A stretch of 37,765 nt of DNA, taken from an uncultured Pelagibacteraceae bacterium (GTDB taxonomy: Bacteria > Pseudomonadota > Alphaproteobacteria > Pelagibacterales > Pelagibacteraceae). A model generated the notes under the pieces. That model worked only from the letters and a program-made list of their open reading frames with translations. It was not told where the DNA came from and did no database searches. The stretch spans positions 1 to 37,765 of the forward strand of contig CACFKI010000008.1 of the NCBI GenBank assembly GCA_902566785.1. Direction: 5' to 3'. Shown here piece by piece: positions 1 to 13,737 of the stretch (positions are counted from its first letter, which is position 1; every line of letters begins with the position of its first letter). The position numbers were made by a program, and so were the translations under genes.

Positions 1-1893
1 CCTACTGACTTAACTGTTTTTGTTAAAAGATACAAAGTTACAAATGATAAAGAACTAAAATATATCCCTGATCCAATGTTTGACCCGCTAAATGAAATAA
101 ATATAGAAAGACAAACTGCAAGCTCATTCCAGGTTAAAGAAGGAGATTATATTCAGGTAATATCACCAACTGGAAGACAGTGCTCTGATTTTGTAGCTTT
201 TGATACATCTAAGCTCGGTAAAGGAATTGAAAAAGGTCTCGATTGGCAAACAACAAGAACGTTTATGGGAAATACCTTCCCAGGACCAGGTTTATTTTCA
301 AAATTTTATGATACTGATCATGAACCGTTAGTTGAGGTTATTAGAGATACTGTTGGAAGACATGATACTTTCAATCTTGCATGTACTTCAAAATATTATG
401 AAGATGCAGGTTATTTTGGTCATCCAAACTGTTCTGATAATTTAAACAAATCTATGGAAAAATATGGAGTAGAAAAAAAGAAGGGTTGGCATGCAATAAA
501 CTTATTTTTTAATACATCTGCTGGAGGGCTAAATTCAGTGTTATCAGATGAATCATATGCAAGACCTGGAGATTATGTAACATTTAGGGCACTTAAAGAT
601 TTAACATGTGGAACAACAGCTTGTCCAAGCGATATAGATGCTTGTAATTCATGGAATCCAACTGATATTTTTGTTAGAACTTATGATAAAAATAAAGAAT
701 TTACAAAATCTTTTGCATTTAGAATGAAAACAGATTCAGAGAGAAAATTGACAAGAAACACTGGTTTCTATGAAAAAACTTCAAAGCTTACTAGAAATTT
801 TGTTGATGCAAGAGGATTTTGGTTACCTAATGATTATACAAAGCATGGTATAATGAATGAGTATACCGCGTGTCGTGAAAAAGCAGTAATAATTGATTTA
901 TCATCTTTAAGGAAATTTGAAATATTAGGTCCTGATGCAGAAGAGTTAATGAATTATACACTAACAAGAAATATAAAGAAGCTCTCTGTTGGTCAAGTTG
1001 TATATTCTTCAATGTGTTATGAAAATGGCTTTATGTTTGATGATGGAACTTTATTAAAATTAAGTGATCATGGATTTAGATGGATTTGTGGAGATGAGTA
1101 CGCAGGTGAATGGTTAAAAGAACAAGCAAAAAAAAAGAATTATAAAGTCTTGATAAAAAACTCCACAGATCAGATTAACAATATTTCATTACAAGGTCCA
1201 AATAGTAGAAAAATTTTAGAGAAATTAATTTTTACTCCACCTACGCAGCCAAAAATATCTGAGTTAGAATGGTTTAGATTTACTATTTGTAGAATAGAAG
1301 ATTTAAATGGAATTCCTTTAATAGTATCTAGAACTGGTTACACCGGTGAACTTGGATATGAAATTTGGTGTCATCCATCTGATGCTCCAAAGGTTTGGGA
1401 TAAAGTAATGGAAGTTGGAAAAGCACATGGATTAATACCAGCTGGTTTTGCAGCTTTAGATTTATTAAGAATTGAGGCTGGACTGATATTATTTGGTAAC
1501 GAATTTGATGGACAAGTAGACCCTTTTGAAGCAGGAGTTGGATTTACCGTTCCACTAAAAACTAAAACTGATGATTTTATAGGAAAAGATGAACTTTTAA
1601 AAAGAAAAGAAAATCCACAAAAAAAACTTGTTGGTCTAGAATTAATAGGTAAAGAAACAGCTAATCATGGAGATTGTGTTCACATAGGTAGAGCACAAGT
1701 TGGAGTAATAACCAGTGGATGTATATCGCCAACTTTAAATAAAAATATTGCTTTATGTAGAATAGATATTGGACACTCTAATTTAGATACTGAAGTTGAA
1801 GTTGGAAAAATTGATGGACACCAAAAAAGAATTCCAGCAAAAATAGTAGCATACCCACATTTTGATCCACAAAAAACAAGGGTAAGATCATAG
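1..1893 (+). CDS. tdm: Trimethylamine-N-oxide demethylase-like protein (DUF1989 + GcvT domains), 5' partial
   Basis: This probably converts TMAO to dimethylamine and formaldehyde in the cytoplasm; Tdm is known to combine a DUF1989 metal domain with a GcvT-like tetrahydrofolate domain. The frame is open to base 1, so the true start lies left of the window; the first internal ATG (76) falls inside the domain and is not a credible start. The DUF1989 part shows cysteine motifs GRQCSD (nt ~172-189), FGHPNCSDN (nt ~414) and ACPSDIDACN (nt ~616), which fit the metal site of the family. The second half is a GcvT fold with SRTGYTGELGYEIW (nt ~1330) and a C-terminal region with DLLRIEAG. About 630 codons are visible, and I expect 130-180 more upstream. 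The stop is 10 bp before the next gene. An alternative is another DUF1989-GcvT N-demethylase acting on a related methylated amine. Confidence 0.82.
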   Translation, partial: PTDLTVFVKRYKVTNDKELKYIPDPMFDPLNEINIERQTASSFQVKEGDYIQVISPTGRQCSDFVAFDTSKLGKGIEKGLDWQTTRTFMGNTFPGPGLFSKFYDTDHEPLVEVIRDTVGRHDTFNLACTSKYYEDAGYFGHPNCSDNLNKSMEKYGVEKKKGWHAINLFFNTSAGGLNSVLSDESYARPGDYVTFRALKDLTCGTTACPSDIDACNSWNPTDIFVRTYDKNKEFTKSFAFRMKTDSERKLTRNTGFYEKTSKLTRNFVDARGFWLPNDYTKHGIMNEYTACREKAVIIDLSSLRKFEILGPDAEELMNYTLTRNIKKLSVGQVVYSSMCYENGFMFDDGTLLKLSDHGFRWICGDEYAGEWLKEQAKKKNYKVLIKNSTDQINNISLQGPNSRKILEKLIFTPPTQPKISELEWFRFTICRIEDLNGIPLIVSRTGYTGELGYEIWCHPSDAPKVWDKVMEVGKAHGLIPAGFAALDLLRIEAGLILFGNEFDGQVDPFEAGVGFTVPLKTKTDDFIGKDELLKRKENPQKKLVGLELIGKETANHGDCVHIGRAQVGVITSGCISPTLNKNIALCRIDIGHSNLDTEVEVGKIDGHQKRIPAKIVAYPHFDPQKTRVRS

Positions 1894-1903
1894 TAAATTT
1901 ATT

Positions 1904-2254
1904 ATGAATAAAGCCACTAAAGATCTTCTAGAGTTTTGGGAAGAGCAAATGAGACTTTCTCATACATCAAGCAATTATTTCTTTAGAAAATCTCCATCTC
2001 ATTATCACATGATGTTATTGGTTATGAGCGCGTATAAACTAAATCAAAATTTGTCTGTGGAAGAATTGAAAACAAAATTATTTAAAACTTCTCGACCTAA
2101 ATCTGCTTTAATTATTACTGAGGCATGTGAAAAAGGTTTTTTCTTTTTAGAGAAAACATCAAAAGATCAAAGAAAAAAATATATAAAACCAACTGAAGCA
2201 TTCATAAAAGAATTTAATGAATACCTAAAAACTCTTAAAAATCTAAGTTTTTGA
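1904..2254 (+). CDS. Small winged-helix (MarR-like) transcriptional regulator
   Basis: A 116-aa cytoplasmic protein with no signal peptide or membrane segment. The middle (residues ~50-100) looks like a winged-helix DNA-binding domain. It has a helical stretch with SRPKSALIITEACEKGFFF, a charged wing containing SKDQRKKYI, then KPTEAFIKEF, the layout seen in MarR-family wings (D-x-R followed by a T-rich C-terminal helix). It is shorter than a classical MarR protein (140-150 aa), mainly at the N-terminus. It lies 10 bp after tdm and just before the FAD oxidoreductase, so it may be a local regulator of methylated-amine use. Family membership is inferred from the motif pattern; the effector is unknown. 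Confidence 0.6.
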   Translation: MNKATKDLLEFWEEQMRLSHTSSNYFFRKSPSHYHMMLLVMSAYKLNQNLSVEELKTKLFKTSRPKSALIITEACEKGFFFLEKTSKDQRKKYIKPTEAFIKEFNEYLKTLKNLSF

Positions 2255-2279
2255 TGTAAACCTAGGGTAGAATTATATT
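2251..2279 (+). promoter_or_regulatory. Possible sigma-70 type promoter for the FAD oxidoreductase gene
   Basis: TTGATG (2251-2256) and TATATT (2274-2279) are separated by 17 bp, giving 4/6 and 5/6 matches to the -35 and -10 consensus. The predicted start would be near 2286, about 58 nt before the ATG at 2345. In an AT-rich genome such matches arise by chance, so this is tentative. Confidence 0.33.
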
Positions 2280-2344
2280 TACTTATAATTTTTATATATA
2301 AAAATAATAATATACTTTTGTCGCACAAAAAATATTGTTCACTT

Positions 2345-3670
2345 ATGTCATTACCGACAAAAGCAAAAGTTGTTATAATTGGTGGAGGTATCCACGGATT
2401 AAGTACGGCTTGGAAACTTTCAGAGACTTATAAAAATCCAGGAGACATTGTAGTTTTAGAAAAAAAAGATACAGCAGCAGGTGCAAGTGGAATTGCTTGT
2501 GGCGTTGTTAGGAACAATTATTTTCAGCCAGCAATGAGAGAATTAATGGCCCATTCTGTTGAAGTTTGGGAAAGTGATCCGAAGGCTTTTAAATACAATC
2601 CTGTTGGATATATGCAAATTTCTCCTGAAATTATGCACGAAGATGTTGCAAGTATTTTTAAACAACAAAAAGCAATTGGATATGAATCAGTTTTTATAGA
2701 AGGCGAAAAAGACTGTACAAAATATATGAAGAATATTTTCGATGACTGGCAGGCGCAAGGTATTACTTCAGTTCTTCATGAAAAAAAAGGTGGATATGCC
2801 TTTAATAAAGATTCTATAAAAGCATTAGAAAGTAAAGCAAACTCTAATGGGGTTAATGTTCATAAGGGTGTAAAAGTTACAGGATTTAAAAGAGGAAGTA
2901 ATAGCAATTCAGTTACCGGAGTAGTTACAAACATGGGAACGATCGACTGCGATCAAGTAGTGGTTGGAGCTGGTCCATGGGTAAGAGATTTTTGGAACAT
3001 GTTAGAACTACCTAAGACAACAGAAATAAAAGGTAAAGACGGAAAAAAACACGAGGTTGAAATGTGGAAGTATTGGTTTTTACAAGAGGGAGTTTTAGGA
3101 GTTGAGGCAGACTATCTTAGAACAAACGAAGGTAAACAACCTCCAGTGATACATGTTGATACAGATGCTCCTTTACATTCAGATGCAACTGGTAAATTAA
3201 TTACAGATGAACTTTGGGGAATTTACTACAAACCTGATATTGAAGGTTTGGGTGTTCAAGGTGGAACATCGCCTTATATAGTTGAAAAACATTTTGATAA
3301 AGTAAACGTAGATCCATATGGAATAGATTCACCTGAGTATCAAACAACAGATAAATTTGCAGATATGTGGACTTCTGCTTTAGCGCATTGTCAAAAAAGA
3401 TTTGTAGGAAAATCAAATTTATACCGAAAAGGTCCGTCAGGTGGTCTTGGATGTTTAACTCCAGACTCATTCCCGATCTTTGATAGATTTTTTGAAAACG
3501 TTTATATGATAGCAGATGCTAATCATGGTTATAAAATGATAGGAGTTGGACACCTTGTTGCACAAGAAATTTTAGGAACTGAGAGTGAACTATTAAAACC
3601 GTTTAGATTCAATCGATACGCGAAGGGCGAACTTCATCCCACTTCGAACAGTCCGTTTCCTTGGAGTTAA
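2345..3670 (+). CDS. DAO-family FAD-dependent oxidoreductase (sarcosine oxidase beta / NMG dehydrogenase-like)
   Basis: A 441-aa single-chain amine oxidoreductase of the D-amino-acid-oxidase fold. The dinucleotide-binding motif IIGGGIHGLSTAW begins at about residue 11, the beta-2 acidic end is VVLEKK (~37-41), and GASGIACGVVRNNYF (~46-60) resembles the SoxB-type FAD-contact segment. Further typical pieces are VVVGAGPWV in the middle and GYKMIGVGHLVAQ near the C-terminus. I chose ATG 2345 (MSLPTKAKVV) over an in-frame TTG at 2318, because the FAD motif normally starts within about 10 residues. It probably oxidises an N-methyl amine such as dimethylglycine, sarcosine or N-methylglutamate, passing formaldehyde to folate. 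Placed between a GcvT-containing gene and a GS/mgs set, it is the only local candidate for the dehydrogenase step. The SoxA/D/G-type partner subunits are absent. The substrate is inferred only. Confidence 0.75.
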   Translation: MSLPTKAKVVIIGGGIHGLSTAWKLSETYKNPGDIVVLEKKDTAAGASGIACGVVRNNYFQPAMRELMAHSVEVWESDPKAFKYNPVGYMQISPEIMHEDVASIFKQQKAIGYESVFIEGEKDCTKYMKNIFDDWQAQGITSVLHEKKGGYAFNKDSIKALESKANSNGVNVHKGVKVTGFKRGSNSNSVTGVVTNMGTIDCDQVVVGAGPWVRDFWNMLELPKTTEIKGKDGKKHEVEMWKYWFLQEGVLGVEADYLRTNEGKQPPVIHVDTDAPLHSDATGKLITDELWGIYYKPDIEGLGVQGGTSPYIVEKHFDKVNVDPYGIDSPEYQTTDKFADMWTSALAHCQKRFVGKSNLYRKGPSGGLGCLTPDSFPIFDRFFENVYMIADANHGYKMIGVGHLVAQEILGTESELLKPFRFNRYAKGELHPTSNSPFPWS

Positions 3671-3672
3671 TT

Positions 3673-3699
3673 CATCTAAGTAGACAGATGTTTTTTTTT
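3673..3699 (+). terminator. Short hairpin plus T-run after the FAD oxidoreductase gene
   Basis: CATCT (3673-3677) pairs with AGATG (3686-3690) across an 8-nt loop and is followed at once by nine T residues (3691-3699). The stem is only 5 bp, so it could be a weak terminator or attenuator before the GS-family gene at 3737. Confidence 0.42.
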
Positions 3700-3736
3700 C
3701 AGTTAACTTTCATTACTAATAATTAAGAGGGGTAAA

Positions 3737-5206
3737 ATGACTGATCTAGAAAAACATGTAAATCAACCTGGTAGAGCAAAGTTAGTAAAAAGAGTTAGAG
3801 AAAAAATTAAAGAATTGGGAATTACTTATATTTATTTTCAATTTATTTCTGTAACAGGAAGAGTTGTTGGTAAAGGTATACCAGCAGATCATTGGGAAAG
3901 AACTGCTGAAAGAGGGTTTCAATTAGTTTATGGTTCAACCGCAAATTTGTTTTTAGATCGTCACAACAATTATATTGGATATGGCCCTGAAGCAATGGAG
4001 TTGGTTGGTATCCCTGATCCAGAAACTTTTGTTCAATTGCCATGGGATAAAAGAGTAGGAAGAGTTTTTTGTACATGTTTTAGAAATAGAGAAGAAAGAA
4101 ATAATCCAGGTGGTCATTTGACGTCAGACTGTAGAGGAAATTTAAGAATTTTCATGGATGAGTTTCAAAAAAAACATGGGTTAGAATTAAGAGTTGGAAC
4201 AGAGCCAGAAATGATGTGGTTAACTAAGAACCCAGACGGTACACCAACTGGAAAGGGTTTCTCAAAACCTTTCTGTTATCATATTGATCAATTTGAGTCT
4301 TTAAGACCTGTATTTATGAAGGTAATAGAATACTCAAATGCAATGGGGCTAGATATGATTCAAGGTGACCACGAAGATGCTCCTGGCCAATTAGAATTAA
4401 ACTGGACTTACGATAATGTTTTAAGAAATGCTGACAGATTATCTACTTATAGACAAATCTGTGCTCAAGTAGCAAGGGAGCATGGTTTAATTGCTTGCTT
4501 TATGACTAAACCATTTATGGGTGTTTCTGCTAGCGGTTGTCATACAAATATGTCTTTGTGGAAAGGTGGAAAAATTTCCGTTAATAAACTTGGGCATAAA
4601 AATTTACCAGGTGTTGAGGAAGTATTTAGTTACGTTTCAGGGGGAACAAACACTTTTATGCCTGACACAAAGGATATGCAAATGCCTGGAAAAATTGGCT
4701 TGCAATCCATTGCTGGAATTATGAAACATTTGCCAGCATTGACTGCTCTTGGATCTTCAACTGTTAATTCATATAGAAGATTATGGGATCAAGGATTTTG
4801 GGCACCTGTTTATGCTGACTGGGGATATCAAAACAGAACTTGTGGATTGAGAGTTTCTGCTCCTGGAAGATTTGAATATAGATCTGTAGACTCAATGCAT
4901 AACCCTTATTTATTAGGAGCTGCTTTATTAAAAGCTTGTGATGAAGGTATATCTAAAAAGATGGTACCAGCAAAACCAGAGTCTAGAAACATTTATGAAG
5001 CCCAAAAAGCTGGTAAAGATGTTAAAAAGCTTCCACTAAGTTTAGGTGAAGCTCTTGATAGACTCGCAGAAGATGAAGTAATTAAATCAGCAATGCCAGA
5101 TGAAATGTATAAAGTTTTCCATTGGTATAAAAATGATGAGTGGGAAAGATTTTTAGGAGCAACTACACAATGGGATCTGGATACTTATCTAGATTGTTTA
5201 CCATAG
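3737..5206 (+). CDS. Glutamine synthetase-family ligase, possible gamma-glutamylmethylamide synthetase
   Basis: A 489-aa cytoplasmic ATP-dependent glutamate-amine ligase of the glutamine synthetase fold. Catalytic-site elements are in order: GTEPEMMW (metal glutamates, E156/E158), GDHEDAPGQLELNW (E213, E220), SGCHTNMSLW (H269), TVNSYRRLW and NRTCGLRV (phosphate/glutamate arginines), then RFEYRSVDSMHNPYLL. The DGSS loop carrying the ammonium-activating Asp of classical GlnA is replaced by VYGSTANLF, so the amine substrate may not be ammonium. The start is well supported by AGAGGGG 7-8 nt upstream. The gene is 18 bp before mgsA, which favours a role feeding the GOGAT-like complex, either gamma-glutamylmethylamide or glutamine. 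It is clearly distinct from the GS-family gene at 10815, and which of the two is the true GmaS cannot be settled from motifs. Confidence 0.78.
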   Translation: MTDLEKHVNQPGRAKLVKRVREKIKELGITYIYFQFISVTGRVVGKGIPADHWERTAERGFQLVYGSTANLFLDRHNNYIGYGPEAMELVGIPDPETFVQLPWDKRVGRVFCTCFRNREERNNPGGHLTSDCRGNLRIFMDEFQKKHGLELRVGTEPEMMWLTKNPDGTPTGKGFSKPFCYHIDQFESLRPVFMKVIEYSNAMGLDMIQGDHEDAPGQLELNWTYDNVLRNADRLSTYRQICAQVAREHGLIACFMTKPFMGVSASGCHTNMSLWKGGKISVNKLGHKNLPGVEEVFSYVSGGTNTFMPDTKDMQMPGKIGLQSIAGIMKHLPALTALGSSTVNSYRRLWDQGFWAPVYADWGYQNRTCGLRVSAPGRFEYRSVDSMHNPYLLGAALLKACDEGISKKMVPAKPESRNIYEAQKAGKDVKKLPLSLGEALDRLAEDEVIKSAMPDEMYKVFHWYKNDEWERFLGATTQWDLDTYLDCLP

Positions 5207-5224
5207 TATTGAAAAGGAAAAAAT

Positions 5225-6169
5225 ATGTGCGGAATAGCGGGATTAATTCATAGAGGAAAATCTTCAAAAGTAGGTCATGAACTTCAGGGAATGCTTCAAG
5301 CTTTGAAGCACAGAGGTGAGGACTCTACTGGCTATGCATTGTATGGGGACACAGAAGGAAAAAATTTTATAATGAGAGTTAAAATTGGAGAAAATGTTGG
5401 AGAAGGAAGTTCCTCTGTAGCTGAAGATGTATCTGTATATGATGAAAGAAAAAAAGTTGTTGAAAGCTGTATTTCAGAAATGGGAGCTAAAATTATTAAA
5501 GCAGACCGAGTTCTACCATACTCGTTAAGATATGAAATTGAATATAACAAAGACGATTTATTGAATTTTTCGCAAAAAATAGAAAGTATTGAAGGAGTAG
5601 AAATTCTTTCAATGGGTAAATCTTTAGAAGTAATAAAAGATCTTGGAAATGCAAAAATGGTTTGTGATAGATATAATTTAGATAAACTTGTTGGAACACA
5701 TGCAATTGGACATGCTAGAATGGCAACAGAATCAGGAGTAGATATTAAATCTGCCCACCCATTTTGGGGATATCCTTTTAGCGATGTATCAGTTGTTCAT
5801 AACGGTCAATTAACTAACTATTGGAACAATAGAAGGATTTTAGAAAATAAAGGTATGAGATTTATGTCAGAGTGTGACTCTGAGTTAATTGCTGTTTACC
5901 TTGCAGAAAAAATGAGAAACGGGGCTAGTTTAGAAGAAGGGATGAAAGACTCTTTAAGTGGTTTAGATGGTGTCTTTACTTATTTTGTGGCAACAAAAGA
6001 CTCTTTAGGAATGGCTAAAGATACAATGGCAGCTAAACCTTTGGTATTATACGAGTCAGATGATTTAGTTGCAATGGGATCTGAGGAAATAGCTATAAGA
6101 TCTTTACTTCCACAAGAAATAGATACTTATGATCCTTTTGATGGAGAGGTAAAAGTATGGCAAATTTAA
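5225..6169 (+). CDS. mgsA: N-methylglutamate synthase subunit A-like / class II glutamine amidotransferase
   Basis: A 314-aa Ntn-type glutaminase domain. Cys2 in MCGIAGLIHRG is the nucleophile after removal of Met1. Downstream are RGEDSTGYA, GHARMATESG with AHPFWGYP, VHNGQLTNYW (oxyanion Asn/Gly) and SECDSELIA, all standard for class II amidotransferases. The length matches a stand-alone domain rather than the N-terminus of full GltB. It hydrolyses glutamine or gamma-glutamylmethylamide and channels the ammonia or methylamine to the FMN subunit MgsC. The start has an AAAAGGAAAA ribosome-binding site. Its last 13 bases overlap mgsB, a sign of translational coupling. The three-gene split (mgsABC, equal to glxBCD in rhizobia) is the basis for the symbol. 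Confidence 0.85.
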   Translation: MCGIAGLIHRGKSSKVGHELQGMLQALKHRGEDSTGYALYGDTEGKNFIMRVKIGENVGEGSSSVAEDVSVYDERKKVVESCISEMGAKIIKADRVLPYSLRYEIEYNKDDLLNFSQKIESIEGVEILSMGKSLEVIKDLGNAKMVCDRYNLDKLVGTHAIGHARMATESGVDIKSAHPFWGYPFSDVSVVHNGQLTNYWNNRRILENKGMRFMSECDSELIAVYLAEKMRNGASLEEGMKDSLSGLDGVFTYFVATKDSLGMAKDTMAAKPLVLYESDDLVAMGSEEIAIRSLLPQEIDTYDPFDGEVKVWQI

Positions 6170-7011
6170 AAACATCAGAAAAAAAAACTAAAGCTCAATC
6201 AATGGGTCTTCATACTGAGGTCCTTACAGGTAAAACACAACAAAAATTCTTTAACCCTGATGAAGCAGAAAACTTTTATTATTGGGGAACATATGATGTT
6301 GATTTTAACAAAAGAATAGATCTTGATGTAAAAGATTTAGAATGTAAAGAAGCAAACAAAAAAATCGACGAATTAATGAGTCAAGGTTACGGAACTATTG
6401 TTATTAAAAATCCACAAGGAAAGCATAGTTTAGGGGTTGGTATACTTAATAAATTAAATTTAATTTTTGAAGGAAGTTTAGGTTATTTCGGAGTTGGATC
6501 AATAGATGGGCCAACGGTTAGAATTAATGGTAGAGTTGGATGGTCATGTGCGGAAAATATGATGGCTGGAAAAGTAGTAATAGAAAAAAATGCAGGATCT
6601 TGTTTTGGAGCAGCGATCAGAGGCGGTGATCTAGTCTGCAAAGGTAGCGTTGGTGCTAGAACCGGAATTGATCAAAAAGGTGGAACAATTATTGTAGGTG
6701 GAGATGCTGGTGCATTTACTGGATTTATGATGCAGAGAGGAAGAATAGTAATCTTAGGTGACGTTGGTATAAATCTTGGAGACTCTATGTATGATGGAAC
6801 TATATATGTAGGTGGAAAAATAGGATCTTTTGGAAGTGATGCGGTGGAGTCACCTATGACAAAAAGTGATATAGATTGGTTAAAAAGAAAACTTAAAGTA
6901 GCTGAAATCGGTGAGAATTATGATGTATCTAAAATGACTAAAGTAGTTGCTGGTAAAAAATTATGGAACTATGACGCTTTAGAGCCTACTGAGAAAAAAG
7001 GAGCTATATAA
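6157..7011 (+). CDS. mgsB: N-methylglutamate synthase subunit B-like (GXGXG beta-helix domain)
   Basis: A 284-aa protein corresponding to the C-terminal GXGXG domain of the large subunit of glutamate synthase, a right-handed beta-helix that holds the synthase complex together. Repeated Gly-rich turns are visible, for example GRVGWSCAENMMAG, NAGSCFGAAIRGG, GSVGARTGIDQKGG, GGDAGAFTGFMMQRG, GDVGINLGDSMYDG and GGKIGSFG (residues ~115-230). There are no catalytic residues of its own. The ATG at 6157 follows GGAGAGG inside the end of mgsA, and the stop TAA overlaps the ATG of mgsC by one base. This tight coupling suggests 1:1:1 synthesis of the three subunits. Confidence 0.85.
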   Translation: MANLKTSEKKTKAQSMGLHTEVLTGKTQQKFFNPDEAENFYYWGTYDVDFNKRIDLDVKDLECKEANKKIDELMSQGYGTIVIKNPQGKHSLGVGILNKLNLIFEGSLGYFGVGSIDGPTVRINGRVGWSCAENMMAGKVVIEKNAGSCFGAAIRGGDLVCKGSVGARTGIDQKGGTIIVGGDAGAFTGFMMQRGRIVILGDVGINLGDSMYDGTIYVGGKIGSFGSDAVESPMTKSDIDWLKRKLKVAEIGENYDVSKMTKVVAGKKLWNYDALEPTEKKGAI

Positions 7012-8405
7012 TGCCAAAGAAAAAAAATGGAAAATCAAACGGTCATTCAAATGGGAATGGCAAAAGCGGATTTGCAAAAAGAAATAAAAGTTTATTAGGG
7101 TACAATGCTATATTTACACCCGAAGTTATCGATGACATTCATATAAAAGCACAACTTGGAAGATATAGAATGCGTGGAATGGCATTAATGAAAAAAATTC
7201 CAACTTTTGACGATTTAGTTTTTTTACCAGGTACTCTTACAAGATTTGTAATAGAAGGTTACAGAGAAAAATGTGAGACTAAAACTGTAATAGGACCTAG
7301 ATGTGAAAATCCAATTGAATTAGATATTCCAGTTTACATTACAGGAATGAGTTTTGGTGCACTTTCTTATGAAGCAAAAACAGCTTTAGCAAGAGGTGCT
7401 ACTATGGCTGGAAGTGCAACATGCTCAGGTGAAGGAGGGATGATACCTGATGAGAGAAGATACTCTGAAAAATGGTATTATCAATGTATTCAATCTAGAT
7501 ATGGTTTTAACCCTCATCATGCTCAACTAGCAGACGGAATAGAAGTTTTCATAGGACAAGGTCAAAAAGTTGGTATGGGTGGACACCTTATGGGTCAAAA
7601 AGTTACTGATCAAGTAGCAGAAATGAGATCACTACCAGCTGGTATTGATCAACGTTCTCCAGCAAGACATCCTGACTGGTTAGGTCCAGATGATTTAGCT
7701 TTAAAAGTAGCTGAGCTTAGAGAATTAACTAAAAATAAAGTTCCAATACAATTAAAACTTGGTGCAGCAAAAGTTTATGATGACGTTCGTATGGCTGCAA
7801 AATGTGATCCAGATTCTATTTATTTAGACGGTATGGAAGGTTCAACAGGAGCTGGACCCCATATAGCAGCAGCAAATACTGGTATTCCTGGAATTGCAGC
7901 AATTAGAGAAGCAAGAAGAGCGATCGATGATGTAGGAAAAACTGGAAAAGTAACATTAATATACGCAGGTGGTGTTAGAGATGGAGCTGATATGGCAAAG
8001 GCATTAGCTCTTGGAGCTGATGCAATAGCTATAGGTACTGGTGCGATGATCGCACTTAATTGTAATAAAGAAATTCCAGAATCTAATTTTGAAAAAGAAA
8101 TGGGTGTTCCAGCAGGACATTGTTATCACTGTCACACTGGAAGATGTCCAGTTGGTGTAGCAACTCAGGATCCCAAATTAAGAAAAAGATTAAATCCTGA
8201 TGAAGCAGCTCTTAGAGTATATAACTACCTTCATACTATGACTCTAGAAGCACAATTGCTAGCTAGAGCGTGTGGTAAAACTAACATTCATTCTTTAGAA
8301 CCTGAAGATATGGCAGCATTAACAATGGAGGCATCTGCTTTAGCAAAAGTTCCATTATCAGGCACCAATCATACTGTAGGAGTAGACGACTTCCACAAAA
8401 TCTAA
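7011..8405 (+). CDS. mgsC: N-methylglutamate synthase subunit C-like (FMN, Fe-S glutamate synthase domain)
   Basis: A 464-aa catalytic subunit, the FMN-binding TIM-barrel domain of glutamate synthase. Visible are PVYITGMSFGALS (~107), CSGEGGMIPDE (~138), the IQLKLGAAK strand (~246), YLDGMEGSTGAGP (~271), IYAGGVRDGADMAKALALGADA (FMN phosphate region, ~317-338) and CYHCHTGRCPVGVATQD, with C371, C374 and C379 placed to bind the [3Fe-4S] cluster. In MgsABC it transfers the amine from the amidotransferase subunit to make N-methylglutamate. An alternative is a GltB-like activity making glutamate from glutamine and 2-oxoglutarate. The N-terminal ~28 residues are Lys/Asn/Gly-rich and probably disordered. 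The start codon overlaps the mgsB stop. Confidence 0.85.
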   Translation: MPKKKNGKSNGHSNGNGKSGFAKRNKSLLGYNAIFTPEVIDDIHIKAQLGRYRMRGMALMKKIPTFDDLVFLPGTLTRFVIEGYREKCETKTVIGPRCENPIELDIPVYITGMSFGALSYEAKTALARGATMAGSATCSGEGGMIPDERRYSEKWYYQCIQSRYGFNPHHAQLADGIEVFIGQGQKVGMGGHLMGQKVTDQVAEMRSLPAGIDQRSPARHPDWLGPDDLALKVAELRELTKNKVPIQLKLGAAKVYDDVRMAAKCDPDSIYLDGMEGSTGAGPHIAAANTGIPGIAAIREARRAIDDVGKTGKVTLIYAGGVRDGADMAKALALGADAIAIGTGAMIALNCNKEIPESNFEKEMGVPAGHCYHCHTGRCPVGVATQDPKLRKRLNPDEAALRVYNYLHTMTLEAQLLARACGKTNIHSLEPEDMAALTMEASALAKVPLSGTNHTVGVDDFHKI

Positions 8406-8409
8406 AATT

Positions 8410-8823
8410 ATGGCAAAGAAAAAAAATAAAAAGAAGATAAAAAAAGATAAAGAAGTTAAAGGTCAGCTTGGAAAAAAGAAAGAAACTGCTAGAGAGAAAA
8501 TGATTGGGCAGACTATAGGTTATAGATATGATGTAAACCTATTGCCAGACTACTCTAGACTTACTCCATTTTTAAAAAAATATATTGAAGCTATGGGTTG
8601 GGATGATCTTAATTGGCTTGAGGACGTTCACATGGGTTATGAGGAGGATAGACCAGCTGTATTCGATAGAAATGCTAATGGATGGGTAACTATTCCAAAA
8701 AAAATCAAATTACCAAATAATCAGCAAGATAGAGACATGATTGCGAGAGAATTGCTTGTTAAATTTCAGATGTCTCCAAATCACCCTTTAGTAGATCTTA
8801 AAAAAGCTTACAGAAAATTCTAA
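8410..8823 (+). CDS. Unrecognised Lys-rich small protein coupled to mgsC
   Basis: 137 aa, starting 4 bp after the mgsC stop. Residues 1-33 are almost entirely Lys/Asn/Glu (a very basic, likely disordered tail). The rest is a compact, mixed-charge domain rich in Trp/Tyr/Asp (MGWDDLNWLEDVHMGY at ~57-72), ending in LVDLKKAYRKF. No signal peptide, membrane helix, Cys pair or nucleotide motif is visible, and I do not recognise the family. The basic tail resembles the shorter basic N-terminus of MgsC. Its position, in step with mgsABC and before amt, suggests an accessory or assembly factor of the synthase or a GS/Amt regulator. That function is a guess from context. Confidence 0.7.
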   Translation: MAKKKNKKKIKKDKEVKGQLGKKKETAREKMIGQTIGYRYDVNLLPDYSRLTPFLKKYIEAMGWDDLNWLEDVHMGYEEDRPAVFDRNANGWVTIPKKIKLPNNQQDRDMIARELLVKFQMSPNHPLVDLKKAYRKF

Positions 8824-8898
8824 GAATCTATCAACAAATTTATCTAGTATAGGTTGTTCATTTAAAAATTTTTAGCGTATTTCATAGATTATTAGCGA

Positions 8899-8926
8899 TT
8901 GTAGAAACCTTCCTGTCAAATAATAT
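8899..8926 (+). promoter_or_regulatory. Possible promoter for amt
   Basis: TTGTAG (8899-8904) and TAATAT (8921-8926) are separated by 16 bp, inside the 135-bp gap before amt. The -35 matches 4/6 and the -10 matches 5/6. The predicted transcript would have a ~25-nt leader carrying the GGAGG site. No sigma-54 (GG-N10-GC) element was seen. Confidence 0.32.
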
Positions 8927-8958
8927 TCTTATGTTTTGTTTAAACAAATGGAGGTTAA

Positions 8959-10359
8959 ATGACTGACGAACTTGGTGCATTGACGACCATATTTACAGAA
9001 TTTTACTACTGGATAACAGTAGTTCTCATGTTTTTAATTCACGTGGGATTCTGTATGTACGAAGTTGGAGCTTCCCGATACAAACACCATCAACATACAT
9101 TAATGAAAAACACAATGCTGATACCTTTGGTAACAGTAACTTGGTTTTTATTTGGTTGGTGGATTTATTGGGCATTTCCAACTGGACCTGGTCTAGCACC
9201 TTCAATAATGAACGAAAGCGCAGCTTTAATAACAGATGACTCTGCTTTTAGTGCATCGTGGTATGTTCCTACCAGCGATTTAATGGCTGTTAACTTAGGA
9301 GACCACATCAGCGGTGTATTCTGGGCAGCGTTTTTATTATTCTCATGGACAGCAGCCTCAATTGTTTCAGGTGCGGTAATCGAAAGAATAACAACTTTTG
9401 CATTCGGTATCTTAGCAATTGCAATAGGTTCAGTTTTCTGGACTATTGATGCTGCGTGGGGCTGGCACTTTGACGGCTGGATGCTTAAAATACTTGGATA
9501 CCATGATGCTTATGCATCGGGTGTAATTCACGCAATTGCGGGAGGATTTGCACTGGGTATTCTGGTAGTTTTAGGTCCAAGAATTGGTAAATTTTCATCA
9601 AGCGGTGAACCGCGAAACATAGGACCAAGAAATCCTTGGTTGGTCACAATTGGATTATTTCTAATTTACACAGGTTTCTGGGGTTTTTACGCTGCATGTA
9701 ATATTCCAATTTTCGATCTAGGGCCTGAATACGGCATGGAAGGAGTAACTTTTTTCACTGCAACAAACATATATGTAACACCAACCACGCTTAGTGGAAT
9801 TACATTTAACTTTTTGATGTCTTTATCAGGAGGTTTGTTAGCTGGATATATTGTTTCTAAAGGAGATCCTTTCTGGACCTACTCATCAGGACTAGCAGGT
9901 ATAATTTGTGCTTCAGCAGGTAACGATCTATATCATCCAATTCAATCAATGATTATTGGAATGATCGGAGTAGTTATAGCTTACAAAATGCATTATTGGG
10001 TTGAACGTAAGTTCAAAATAGATGATGCAGTAGGTGCAGTAGCTGTGCATGGTTATGCGGGATTTGTTGGCTTAGTAATTTGTGGTTTTGTTTTAAATGG
10101 TTATCCATCATCTGGTTACAGTGTTGGGGCTATGTGGGATGGAACTACTTATGCTGCAATCAATCCACTAGGAATGTTTATTGGTGCAATAATTATGTTT
10201 TTTGTACTCGGAATGATTCCTGGATACATAATTGCTAAGATTCTTCATGGAATGGGTAAACTTAGAATTCCAAGAGAAGCTGAGTTAGCAGGTCTTGACT
10301 ATGAAATAATGGAAGCTGCGAAAGAGGATGAGAAATCCGTCGCATCGGCCAGTAGGTAA
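8959..10359 (+). CDS. amt: Ammonium/methylammonium transporter, Amt family
   Basis: A 466-aa inner-membrane channel with about 11 hydrophobic segments. The twin-His pore pair is present as H191 (GVIHAIAGG) and H364 (VAVHGYAGFVG), and D183 just before the first one matches the conserved pore-entry Asp. SGAVIERI (~137-144) is the Amt signature in TM3. The C-terminal tail LRIPREAELAGLDYE (~435-449) keeps the GlnK-docking consensus. The N-terminal helix (HVGFCMYEVGASRYKHHQ) differs from the usual FLEAGLVRAKN form, pointing to a divergent Amt subclass. An AATGGAGG ribosome-binding site supports the start. No glnK/glnB gene follows; instead a 73-aa membrane protein begins 12 bp later. Placed beside mgs genes, methylammonium as well as ammonium is a plausible substrate. 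Confidence 0.88.
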   Translation: MTDELGALTTIFTEFYYWITVVLMFLIHVGFCMYEVGASRYKHHQHTLMKNTMLIPLVTVTWFLFGWWIYWAFPTGPGLAPSIMNESAALITDDSAFSASWYVPTSDLMAVNLGDHISGVFWAAFLLFSWTAASIVSGAVIERITTFAFGILAIAIGSVFWTIDAAWGWHFDGWMLKILGYHDAYASGVIHAIAGGFALGILVVLGPRIGKFSSSGEPRNIGPRNPWLVTIGLFLIYTGFWGFYAACNIPIFDLGPEYGMEGVTFFTATNIYVTPTTLSGITFNFLMSLSGGLLAGYIVSKGDPFWTYSSGLAGIICASAGNDLYHPIQSMIIGMIGVVIAYKMHYWVERKFKIDDAVGAVAVHGYAGFVGLVICGFVLNGYPSSGYSVGAMWDGTTYAAINPLGMFIGAIIMFFVLGMIPGYIIAKILHGMGKLRIPREAELAGLDYEIMEAAKEDEKSVASASR

Positions 10360-10370
10360 AGGAGGATAAT

Positions 10371-10592
10371 ATGGCAACAGTTACAAACTGGATAGAACAT
10401 CTAAGTGCTGAAGAAGTGCAAGGTGCTATATATCCTGGAGTTGGATCTGAAGGAGTCCTAGTAATTTTAGGATTTATCATTTGGATTGGTTGGCACGTTC
10501 TCGCTGCAAGACAAGAAAGTGAAAAACTTTCTCAACTTGCTAGACGAAGACCAGGTGCTAACGACTGGAAAAATAATGTTACCGATGGGTAA
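10371..10592 (+). CDS. Small single-pass membrane protein co-transcribed with amt
   Basis: 73 aa with a very strong ribosome-binding site (AAAGGAGG) before the ATG, 11 bp after the amt stop. Residues ~1-25 are amphipathic and acidic, ~27-46 form one hydrophobic helix (GVLVILGFIIWIGWHVLAA), and ~47-73 form a basic cytoplasmic tail with LARRRPGANDWK. The charge pattern predicts N-out/C-in. It ends directly before a strong terminator, so amt and this gene appear to form one unit. I do not recognise the family. A role as an Amt partner or regulator is inference from the strict placement. Confidence 0.72.
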   Translation: MATVTNWIEHLSAEEVQGAIYPGVGSEGVLVILGFIIWIGWHVLAARQESEKLSQLARRRPGANDWKNNVTDG

Positions 10593-10600
10593 TTAAAATT

Positions 10601-10630
10601 AAAGGGCGCGGTTAAACTGCGCCCTTTTTT
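10601..10630 (+). terminator. Strong intrinsic terminator after the amt unit
   Basis: GGGCGC (10604-10609) pairs with GCGCCC (10619-10624), extended by AAA/TTT outside and G-C/G-U pairs inside, and is followed by a T6 run (10625-10630). It is the most GC-rich short stretch in the neighbourhood. The A-tract upstream may allow function on both strands. Confidence 0.85.
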
Positions 10631-10814: not shown

Positions 10815-12140
10815 ATGTCAAAAAACTTATCTAAAGTTGCTAAACAAAAAAAAATAAAATATTTTCTAATTAGTTTTGTTGATTTTTTTGGAGTACTAAG
10901 ATCAAAGCTGGTTCCAGCTCAAGCTATCAACGATATGCAAAAAAATGGAGCAGGTTTCGCTGGTTTTGCTACATGGTTAGATATGTCTCCAGCTGATACT
11001 GATATGTTTGCAATTCCAGATCCAGATAGTTTAATTCAACTACCTTGGAATAAAGAAGTTGGATGGCTTGCATCAGATTTATGGATGGATGGAAAACAAG
11101 TTAAGGCATCACCAAGGGTTATGCTTAAAAATCAAATTAATCAATTAAGCAAGAGAAACTTAAATATGAAATCTGGAGTAGAATGTGAATATTTTTTAAT
11201 AACTCCAGATGGATTAAACATTGCAGATAGTAGAGATAATCAATCCAAACCTTGCTATGATCAATCTGCATTGATGAGAAGATATGATTTAATAAAGGAA
11301 ATATGTGATTGCATGATTGAACTAGGTTGGAAGCCTTACCAAAATGACCATGAAGATGCTAATGGACAATTTGAAATGAATTGGGATTATGATGATTGTT
11401 TAATAACAGCTGATAGGCATGTTTTTTTTAAGTTTATGGTTAAATCTTTAGCAGAAAAACATGGTTTAAGAGCTACATTTATGCCAAAACCATTTGAAAA
11501 TTTGACAGGTAATGGTTGCCATGCACATGTATCTTTGTGGAGCGGTAAAACAAATAAATTTTTAGATACAGGAGATAGATATGGTCTTAGCAAAACGGCT
11601 TATCATTTTGTTGGGGGCGTATTAAAAAATGCTAAGTCATTATCATCATTCTTCAATCCAACAATAAATAGCTACAGAAGAATAAATGCTCCAGCAACAA
11701 AATCAGGAGCCTCTTGGTCTCCAAGTAGTATTTCTTATACGGGTAACAACAGGACACATATGATTAGAATTCCTGACCCAGGTAGATTTGAATTAAGGTT
11801 AATGGATGGATCTACTAATCCTTATTTATTACAAGCAGGTATAATATCTGCAGGATTATTTGGTTTAGAAAATAAAATTGATCCTGGTGAACCTTTGTCT
11901 TGTAATATGTATACAGATTATAAAAATTACCCTAATTTAGAAAAACTTCCAAATAATATAGAAGAATCTTTGGATGAATTAGAGGAAAGTAAACATTTAA
12001 AATTATCTTTTGGTGAGGATGTTATCAGTAGTTACATAAAACTTAAAAGAAAAGAAATTGAGGATTTTAATCAAAACGATAATTTTGACAAAAAAAGACC
12101 AATTACAGATTGGGAAAAACAAAATACTTTGGATTGCTAA
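10815..12140 (+). CDS. glnT: Type III glutamine synthetase / gamma-glutamylmethylamide synthetase (GlnT/GmaS family)
   Basis: A 441-aa cytoplasmic ligase joining an amine to the gamma-carboxyl of glutamate at the cost of ATP. It has GVECEYFLI (E123/E125), NDHEDANGQFEMNWDYDD (E180, E187), GNGCHAHVSLW (H236), TINSYRRI, GNNRTHMIRIPDPGRFELR and MDGSTNPYLLQ. The KLVPAQAI and GFAGFATWLDMSP segments are typical of the GlnT (type III) group, which includes known GmaS enzymes with the same EDANGQF motif. The ammonium-site loop is FAGFAT rather than FDGSS. The length is normal. It lies 6 bp before dpaL. The substrate (ammonium or methylamine) is not decidable from motifs, and gmaS is the main alternative name. 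An extended -10 (TGTTAGAAT, 10801-10809) would put transcription start almost on the ATG. Confidence 0.8.
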   Translation: MSKNLSKVAKQKKIKYFLISFVDFFGVLRSKLVPAQAINDMQKNGAGFAGFATWLDMSPADTDMFAIPDPDSLIQLPWNKEVGWLASDLWMDGKQVKASPRVMLKNQINQLSKRNLNMKSGVECEYFLITPDGLNIADSRDNQSKPCYDQSALMRRYDLIKEICDCMIELGWKPYQNDHEDANGQFEMNWDYDDCLITADRHVFFKFMVKSLAEKHGLRATFMPKPFENLTGNGCHAHVSLWSGKTNKFLDTGDRYGLSKTAYHFVGGVLKNAKSLSSFFNPTINSYRRINAPATKSGASWSPSSISYTGNNRTHMIRIPDPGRFELRLMDGSTNPYLLQAGIISAGLFGLENKIDPGEPLSCNMYTDYKNYPNLEKLPNNIEESLDELEESKHLKLSFGEDVISSYIKLKRKEIEDFNQNDNFDKKRPITDWEKQNTLDC

Positions 12141-13290: not shown

Positions 13291-13737
13291 ATGATAAAAT
13301 TAGATGATGAGAATGTTTATAAATTATTTAAACCAGAATTAACTCCAAAAAAAATGCTTGAATTGGGAGTATTTGGGGGTTCATATTTTGGTAATAACAT
13401 TAAAGAATATCCAAAGAATTGGTTCGCTAAAGCTAAATTGAGTAAAAATTTTGATGTAAATATAAATAGATTTAAAATTAAGGCAGGACTATCTAGAAAA
13501 CATTGGATAGAAAAAGGATGGATATTCAAAGAAGATCCTTTGGGATGGTTTCAGTGGTATTGTAGATTTACAATGGGAAGACGTTTACCTAGTATTGATA
13601 TAACTCAAATTAAAAGATGGAAAAATTTTAGAAGACATGTAACAGCAATAGAAAAAAATTGCGAAAAAGGTAATCTAGAATGTAGGAGAAGGCAGAGACA
13701 AGCTATATTGCAATGGGCTTATAACCCATATCGATAA
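13291..13737 (+). CDS. Conserved protein of unknown function, Trp/Arg-rich
   Basis: 148 aa, 4 bp after dpaL, no signal peptide or helix bundle. The N-terminal half has LTPKKMLELGVFGGSYFG. The C-terminal half is strikingly aromatic and basic: EDPLGWFQWYCRFTMGRR (~90-107), IKRWKNFRRH, and CRRRQRQAILQWAY near the end. Such an Arg/Trp/Cys-rich tail could bind nucleic acid or a metal, but no known motif is complete. The block resembles a hypothetical protein family I have seen widely but cannot name. It ends 3 bp before the convergent yjbQ stop. Confidence 0.75.
   Translation: MIKLDDENVYKLFKPELTPKKMLELGVFGGSYFGNNIKEYPKNWFAKAKLSKNFDVNINRFKIKAGLSRKHWIEKGWIFKEDPLGWFQWYCRFTMGRRLPSIDITQIKRWKNFRRHVTAIEKNCEKGNLECRRRQRQAILQWAYNPYR

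Follow-up and report, generated by a model that had tools for sequence, protein, structure and literature searches.

What is the small protein encoded directly behind the last gene of an N-methylglutamate synthase-like operon in SAR11, and does it belong to the enzyme? The gene, here called P0001, is an open reading frame for 137 amino acids (8410-8823, + strand) in the window, by which we mean the whole stretch of 37,765 nucleotides analysed here, and it starts after a 4-bp gap behind mgsC, which ends at 8405. The window comes from an uncultured Pelagibacteraceae bacterium whose 939-kb genome has an estimated completeness of 78%. A sequence-only reading of this DNA had drawn attention to the protein, giving its length and its spacing from mgsC correctly, and had regarded it as a candidate component of the N-methylglutamate synthase system. 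From the comparisons presented here, we consider it probable that certain split glutamate-synthase-like enzymes, a distinct clade for which we have coined the label 'P-type', have P0001 as a fourth subunit, one that is obligatory and non-catalytic.

Results

The operon and its neighbours

Upstream of P0001 on the + strand lie a DAO-family FAD oxidoreductase gene of uncertain start codon (2318-3670; PF01266, E 1.1e-33), the product of which is weakly similar to the sarcosine oxidase beta subunit (PDB 2gag_B, E 3.8e-14), and a gene for a glutamine-synthetase-like amide ligase (3737-5206, + strand; PF00120, E 8.7e-80) that is only ~30-33% identical to classic GlnT/GmaS and falls below the NCBIfam type III cut-off (297.9 vs 469.6 bits). 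The three enzyme genes follow on the same strand: an mgsA/glxB-like class II glutamine amidotransferase (5225-6169; PF13522, E 2.2e-15; N-terminal MCGIA kept), an mgsB/glxC-like GXGXG subunit with N- and C-terminal extensions (6157-7011; PF01493, E 1e-16) and an mgsC/glxD-like FMN synthase subunit of the P-type (7011-8405; PF01645, E 2.3e-89; CYHCHTGRC at residues 371-379). Behind P0001 stands amt, encoding an ammonium transporter family protein (8959-10359, + strand; PF00909, E 3.8e-52). In a pattern scan, positions 1800 to 9004 were free of terminator-like sites on the + strand, and a terminator-like hairpin of 12 pairs came up at 10601-10627 (+ strand), behind a 73-aa ORF; this hairpin is distinguished by its stem length alone, since the scan returned six sites in all against 4.3 expected by shuffling. 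Beyond it lies the true gamma-glutamylmethylamide synthetase homologue, glnT/gmaS proper (10815-12140, + strand), which is 53-61% identical to glnT of six classic loci and matches PDB 7cql (E 4.9e-171) and 9qur, a 'Glutamate--methylamine ligase' (E 1.5e-96).

Of 20 class-wide regions, none lacked mgsA, mgsB, mgsC or P0001; 19 had the GS-like gene, 16 the FAD gene and 8 amt. We therefore count P0001 as part of an inseparable core, around which the other pathway genes vary. One of these regions, L166, has P0001 and no FAD-gene match, and there gmaS directly precedes the P-type genes. A regulator was present in 16 of the 20, of the GntR/FCD type according to a Pfam scan of one member.

Some further small genes were seen in passing. 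The 73-aa ORF after amt (10371-10592) has a hydrophobic stretch, and in Ruegeria conchae the classic mgs locus also has a related 71-aa ORF (45% over 38 residues) after its amt gene. A 148-aa ORF at 13291-13737 had no Pfam or NCBIfam match. In 12 of the 20 regions, a protein of ~190-220 aa (c7; L150:9565-10230 and relatives) is encoded on either strand, no more than ~5 kb from the P-type operon; the two members put through a Pfam scan matched no family.

A conserved core behind a variable tail

P0001 divides into a variable basic tail (residues ~1-27) and a conserved core (~28-137). In the window, residues 1 to ~25 are Lys-rich and the remainder is rich in Trp, Tyr and Asp. The sequence-only reading had remarked on both features: the Trp/Tyr/Asp-rich core is indeed there, and the basic N-terminus is real in the window and goes no further as a family trait. 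Orthologues at L234 and L235 are nearly tail-less, the whole P0001 being 112 and 113 aa, and many others begin with an acidic stretch like DVDxFLKxxGLDTEREK; on alignment, then, the Lys-rich start is a variable tail.

The core itself changes little. Over its 110 codons, 80 SAR11-type copies (the truncated locus L044 left out, G207 (L082) included) differed from the window by a mean of 45.8 synonymous vs 2.35 non-synonymous codon differences, and 39 positions of P0001, no Cys among them, are invariant across 45 diverse sequences. P0001 is thus no chance ORF, and its core is, by this codon count, under strong purifying selection. Across the class, mean pairwise identity was 71.3 for P0001, taken over the whole protein including the tail, vs 83.1 for MgsC, 68.3 for MgsB and 66.0 for MgsA. 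Row set A1 comprised 31 rows, namely the window, 5 of the 54 other distinct SAR11-type copies and 25 of the 26 class-wide copies, the near-copy L099 being omitted; in the conservation figures, one of the 17 FAD-gene rows was a 20-aa fragment, the figures of which were not used.

Family and fold searches

No family could be named when the protein was first noticed, and our searches agree. The best Pfam hit (E 0.16) was under the family cut-off, NCBIfam and PHROGs gave no match to P0001, and the best match among PDB sequences reached E 0.075 with the single sequence and 0.02 with a profile. The Pfam hit, PF08471 (class II ribonucleotide reductase N-terminus), was rejected as too weak at 12.7 bits vs a cut-off of 27, and was matched by 3 of 31 P0001 members at E up to 1; a Toxoplasma TLAP2 chain in the PDB was likewise too weak a match to be taken as a relative. 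At gathering score, Rfam had no match in the window. Open-licence full texts, searched by words and not by sequence, yielded no paper on this fourth gene.

An AlphaFold model of P0001 has an alpha/beta core at ~50-137 with block means of 82-94 and a disordered tail; even the conserved residues 36-43 score under 50 in pLDDT. Foldseek found no PDB structure for this model at E <= 0.001 (best E 1.4), and VIA reached a best Z of 2.2. A read-through fold of MgsC plus P0001 had a mean pLDDT of 50.6 and was discarded, so no interface is predicted; its row set (A2) held 12 of the 30 listed read-through rows, 13 MgsC-only rows and 11 P0001-only rows, many of the remaining read-through rows being the same genomes again. 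For a detached GltB domain as the origin of P0001, hhalign against ten GltB sequences gave no signal (probability 0.3%), in a test that is insensitive (MgsB control 6.5%, MgsC control 99.9%).

Linkage of P0001 to mgsC

In a class sample of 289 genomes, 27 bear P0001, the window's own included, and mgsC is directly upstream in all 27. Approached from the other side, 28 of the 289 genomes hold an MgsC at least 77% identical (among the best matches listed, with at most five candidates scored per genome), and P0001 is present in all 28; these are the 27 search finds plus G173, where the contig ends 17 codons into the P0001 gene. A 385-genome draw added 11 genomes and a sample of 303 genomes from a second class added 14, with mgsC directly upstream of P0001 in 11/11 and 14/14. 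An early view that P0001 is confined to one class was overturned by these 14. This makes 53 genomes (27 + 1 + 11 + 14) from two classes, in collections that may overlap in species, and in none of the 53 was there a P0001 copy away from mgsC. The same adjacency was seen in 80/80 Pelagibacteraceae loci, those that score best among at least 492 matches; within these listed matches, the closest relatives in named genomes are Pelagibacteraceae.

In the phylum sample, 4 of 398 genomes had P0001 matches, two of them chance matches. The matches in G409 and G443 (E 0.002 and 0.009, 42 residues) were judged to be chance, G409 giving no match with the P0001 profile. A separate match, in G262 (E 0.06), was judged in the same way.

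The lock to the enzyme operon that the sequence-only reading had claimed is therefore borne out, P0001 being away from mgsC in 0/53 genomes. It had also named two outcomes that would tell against its proposal, a confident match to an unrelated family and frequent occurrence away from mgsABC; our searches turned up neither. Whether the gene always follows mgsABC, on the other hand, depends on the type of enzyme: it does so for P-type mgsC (28/28, best matches listed) and not for classic-type loci (0/6 and 0/15), to which we now turn.

Comparison with classic loci

Classic MgsABC (GlxBCD) loci of methylotrophs and rhizobia resemble P-type loci in having the same three subunits in the order GATase, GXGXG, FMN synthase, in a glutamine-synthetase-like ligase nearby and, for some loci of either kind, in amt. 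We compared plasmid loci of Paracoccus alcaliphilus, Methylobacterium sp. DM1, Paracoccus sp. MA, Rhizobium etli (glxBCD), Ruegeria conchae and Sphingobium xenophagum. Their MgsC is only 51-52% identical to the P-type protein and their MgsB has 218-229 aa vs 284; in all six, glnT stands directly after mgsC, whereas the P-type operon has a different ligase. P0001 was absent from 6/6 of these loci (best match E 0.81). It was likewise absent, at E 1e-8, from 15/15 loci of the 50-55% MgsC band, which are 12 classic loci and 3 of a neighbouring clade, representing 15 of the 41 band copies listed, and from five more distant mgsC-like loci at the same threshold (best E 0.86 over both sets). Among 72,556 plasmid records, P0001 was found in none at E 1e-5; MgsC relatives, all of them less than 60% identical, are present in 241.

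An additional MgsC of the 50-55% band is encoded in 12 of the 28 P-type genomes (best matches listed), and each of these 12 has one P0001 only, beside the P-type mgsC. In a tree of 47 MgsC-like proteins without outgroup, the P-type forms one side of a branch with support 100/100, and the classic MgsC group one side of a branch with support 100/99. The trees took in 20 P-type MgsC (the window, which is L108, and 19 of the 28 loci), 17 of the 41 band copies and the 6 classic plasmid MgsC, with the MgsC sequences of M. extorquens DM4 and M. universalis outside them. With two distant outgroup rows, the P-type needs two changes on the tree, against one without them; the long outgroup branch attaches inside the P-type, and the single branch is therefore valid only for the unrooted, outgroup-free tree. 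By these sequence comparisons, the 'mgsABC' of the window belongs to a clade separate from classic MgsC, and P0001 is very probably the hallmark of an enzyme type other than classic N-methylglutamate synthase.

MgsB extensions and MgsC cysteines

Two more features accompany the P-type. The N- and C-terminal extensions of MgsB occur in 21/21 P-type vs 0/6 classic plasmid proteins. In the second class, MgsB reaches into the N-terminal extension, as 13 of 14 matches start at query residue 21 or before, the remaining one starting at a contig edge. The CxxCxxxxC motif of MgsC has three cysteines, which in glutamate synthase we take to be the ligands of the [3Fe-4S] cluster; 21/21 P-type and 14/14 second-class P-type proteins have all three. 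By contrast, 9 of 20 classic MgsC (L138, L139, L140, L141, L142, L144, L208, L210 and L212) lack the three, including 6/6 from the classic plasmid loci; an example of the loss is YDDWHEGRDPAG where CYHCHTGRCPVG stands otherwise. The other 11 of the 20 keep them, as does a Burkholderia copy. An N-methylglutamate synthase lacking the iron-sulphur cluster would be notable if true.

Discussion

P0001 as a fourth subunit

Our reading of P0001 as a subunit is based on adjacency that had no exception in the loci examined, exclusive co-inheritance with P-type MgsC, a single gene order, purifying selection and the lack of a family. We take it to be probably non-catalytic because its partnership has no exceptions, its place is in an inseparable core, it is conserved and it matches no recognised catalytic family. 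MgsA, MgsB and MgsC correspond to domains of GltB in GOGAT; the P-type genes differ in being split, and P0001 differs in having no GltB counterpart detectable in the insensitive comparison above. By the analogy with GOGAT, which is established knowledge for these steps, MgsA would release the amine from the gamma-glutamyl amide and MgsC would couple it to 2-oxoglutarate at FMN. We infer that P0001 would bind this complex. Its most likely role, suggested by analogy, would be that of a small alpha/beta clamp seated on MgsC and acting jointly with the extra MgsB segments; the clamp would keep the glutaminase MgsA, the beta-helix MgsB and the FMN synthase MgsC in register. A chaperone or regulator dedicated to the enzyme could show the same adjacency and co-inheritance, and it counts against an obligatory role that the related classic enzyme works without such a protein, according to excerpts of PMC6237917.

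Several other roles can be weighed against the same data. P0001 could be an adaptor or docking subunit at which an electron donor, either a ferredoxin or the FAD oxidoreductase of the operon, takes over from GltD in supplying the MgsC cluster and FMN. The cysteines kept throughout P-type MgsC and lost in 9/20 classic proteins would suit such a dock, as would the FAD gene near 16 of 20 operons and the redox cofactor of the classic enzyme, stated to be unknown in the part of PMC6237917 that deals with it. We nevertheless think this role unlikely, as P0001 has neither an invariant Cys nor a recognised cofactor-binding family, the 11 classic MgsC with all three cysteines have no P0001 beside them, and L166 carries P0001 with no FAD-gene match in the region. 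Rather unlikely, too, is a dedicated assembly or maturation factor, for FMN or cluster insertion or for MgsC folding, that stays outside the finished enzyme: its exclusive pairing with a single clade of MgsC is just as compatible with a dedicated chaperone, and the small size and the charged, variable tail agree with it, but the identity of P0001 is as high as that of the catalytic subunits, suggesting a lasting interface, and three-Cys classic MgsC occur without such a gene.

That P0001 is a separate pathway protein, for instance a regulator or an amide- or amine-binding protein merely co-transcribed with the enzyme, appears improbable. The operon does carry other pathway genes, and the subunit contact is itself deduced; however, those other genes (GS-like, FAD, amt) vary or move between regions and P0001 never does, standing right behind mgsC in 53/53 genomes. 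Least of all do we favour P0001 as a general, overlooked component of N-methylglutamate synthase, which we regard as highly improbable. What stands of the sequence-only proposal is an unrecognised family locked to an mgsABC-like operon, in genomes of which 21 of 28 also have gmaS; what falls is its extension to the classic enzyme, for P0001 is absent from the 6/6 and 15/15 loci of other mgsC types and from all 72,556 plasmid records, the 241 with an MgsC relative included. Moreover, in excerpts of PMC6237917, mgsABC of M. extorquens DM4, with no fourth gene supplied, made N-methylglutamate in P. putida, at 2.5 times less without gmaS than with it, and a table in PMC5023235 gives mgdA as the next locus tag after mgsC in Methyloversatilis (M. 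universalis).

Which amine the pathway serves

If P0001 is indeed a fixed fourth subunit of the P-type enzyme, the functional label of the SAR11 enzyme needs checking. SAR11 oxidises methylamine, and the part of PMC3160333 that treats glxBCD proposes its role by BLAST best hit, which is what its identity as N-methylglutamate synthase rests on in print there. The same source places SAR11_1316 as glnT beside glxBCD and compares it with GMAS; as this position corresponds to the divergent operon ligase and not to the gmaS homologue, the name may be wrong.

Our own counts point both ways. The label is favoured by the methylamine oxidation of SAR11, by gmaS in 21 of 28 P-type genomes (E <= 1e-120) and by its adjacency to the P-type genes in L166. 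In six gmaS-bearing P-type genomes (G000, G207, G016, G185, G229 and G279), the P-type protein is, among the best matches listed, the sole MgsC-like copy to rank higher than ordinary glutamate synthase. Against it stand the 7 of 28 without a gmaS match (4 of the 7 being under 90% complete), the 12 genomes with both enzyme types, the other ligase and the operon's own FAD enzyme. With less confidence than for the clamp, we infer that an alkylamine would pass through a GS/GOGAT-like cycle that parallels the N-methylglutamate pathway and runs from the GS-like ligase through the P-type enzyme to the FAD oxidoreductase. It is a serious possibility, though we would not call it probable, that what is labelled N-methylglutamate synthase in SAR11, in other Alphaproteobacteria and in members of the second class is a glutamate-synthase-like enzyme of four subunits that has gone unrecognised and, together with its own GS-like ligase and FAD oxidoreductase, runs such a cycle on some amine different from methylamine; in SAR11 the operon may serve methylamine itself.

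With a fixed fourth protein of this kind, absent from the classic enzyme, an assay of the SAR11 enzyme built from glxBCD only might give no activity. A family with neither a name nor a fold match is now open to study in a small, defined complex.

Apart from the P-type and classic enzymes, we came across a further clade of MgsABC-like triplets (L213, L214, L215 and L151:3017-4234), with MgsC ~41% identical and no P0001 beside the mgsC-like gene. The triplet of L214 lies in the same region as a gmaS homologue.
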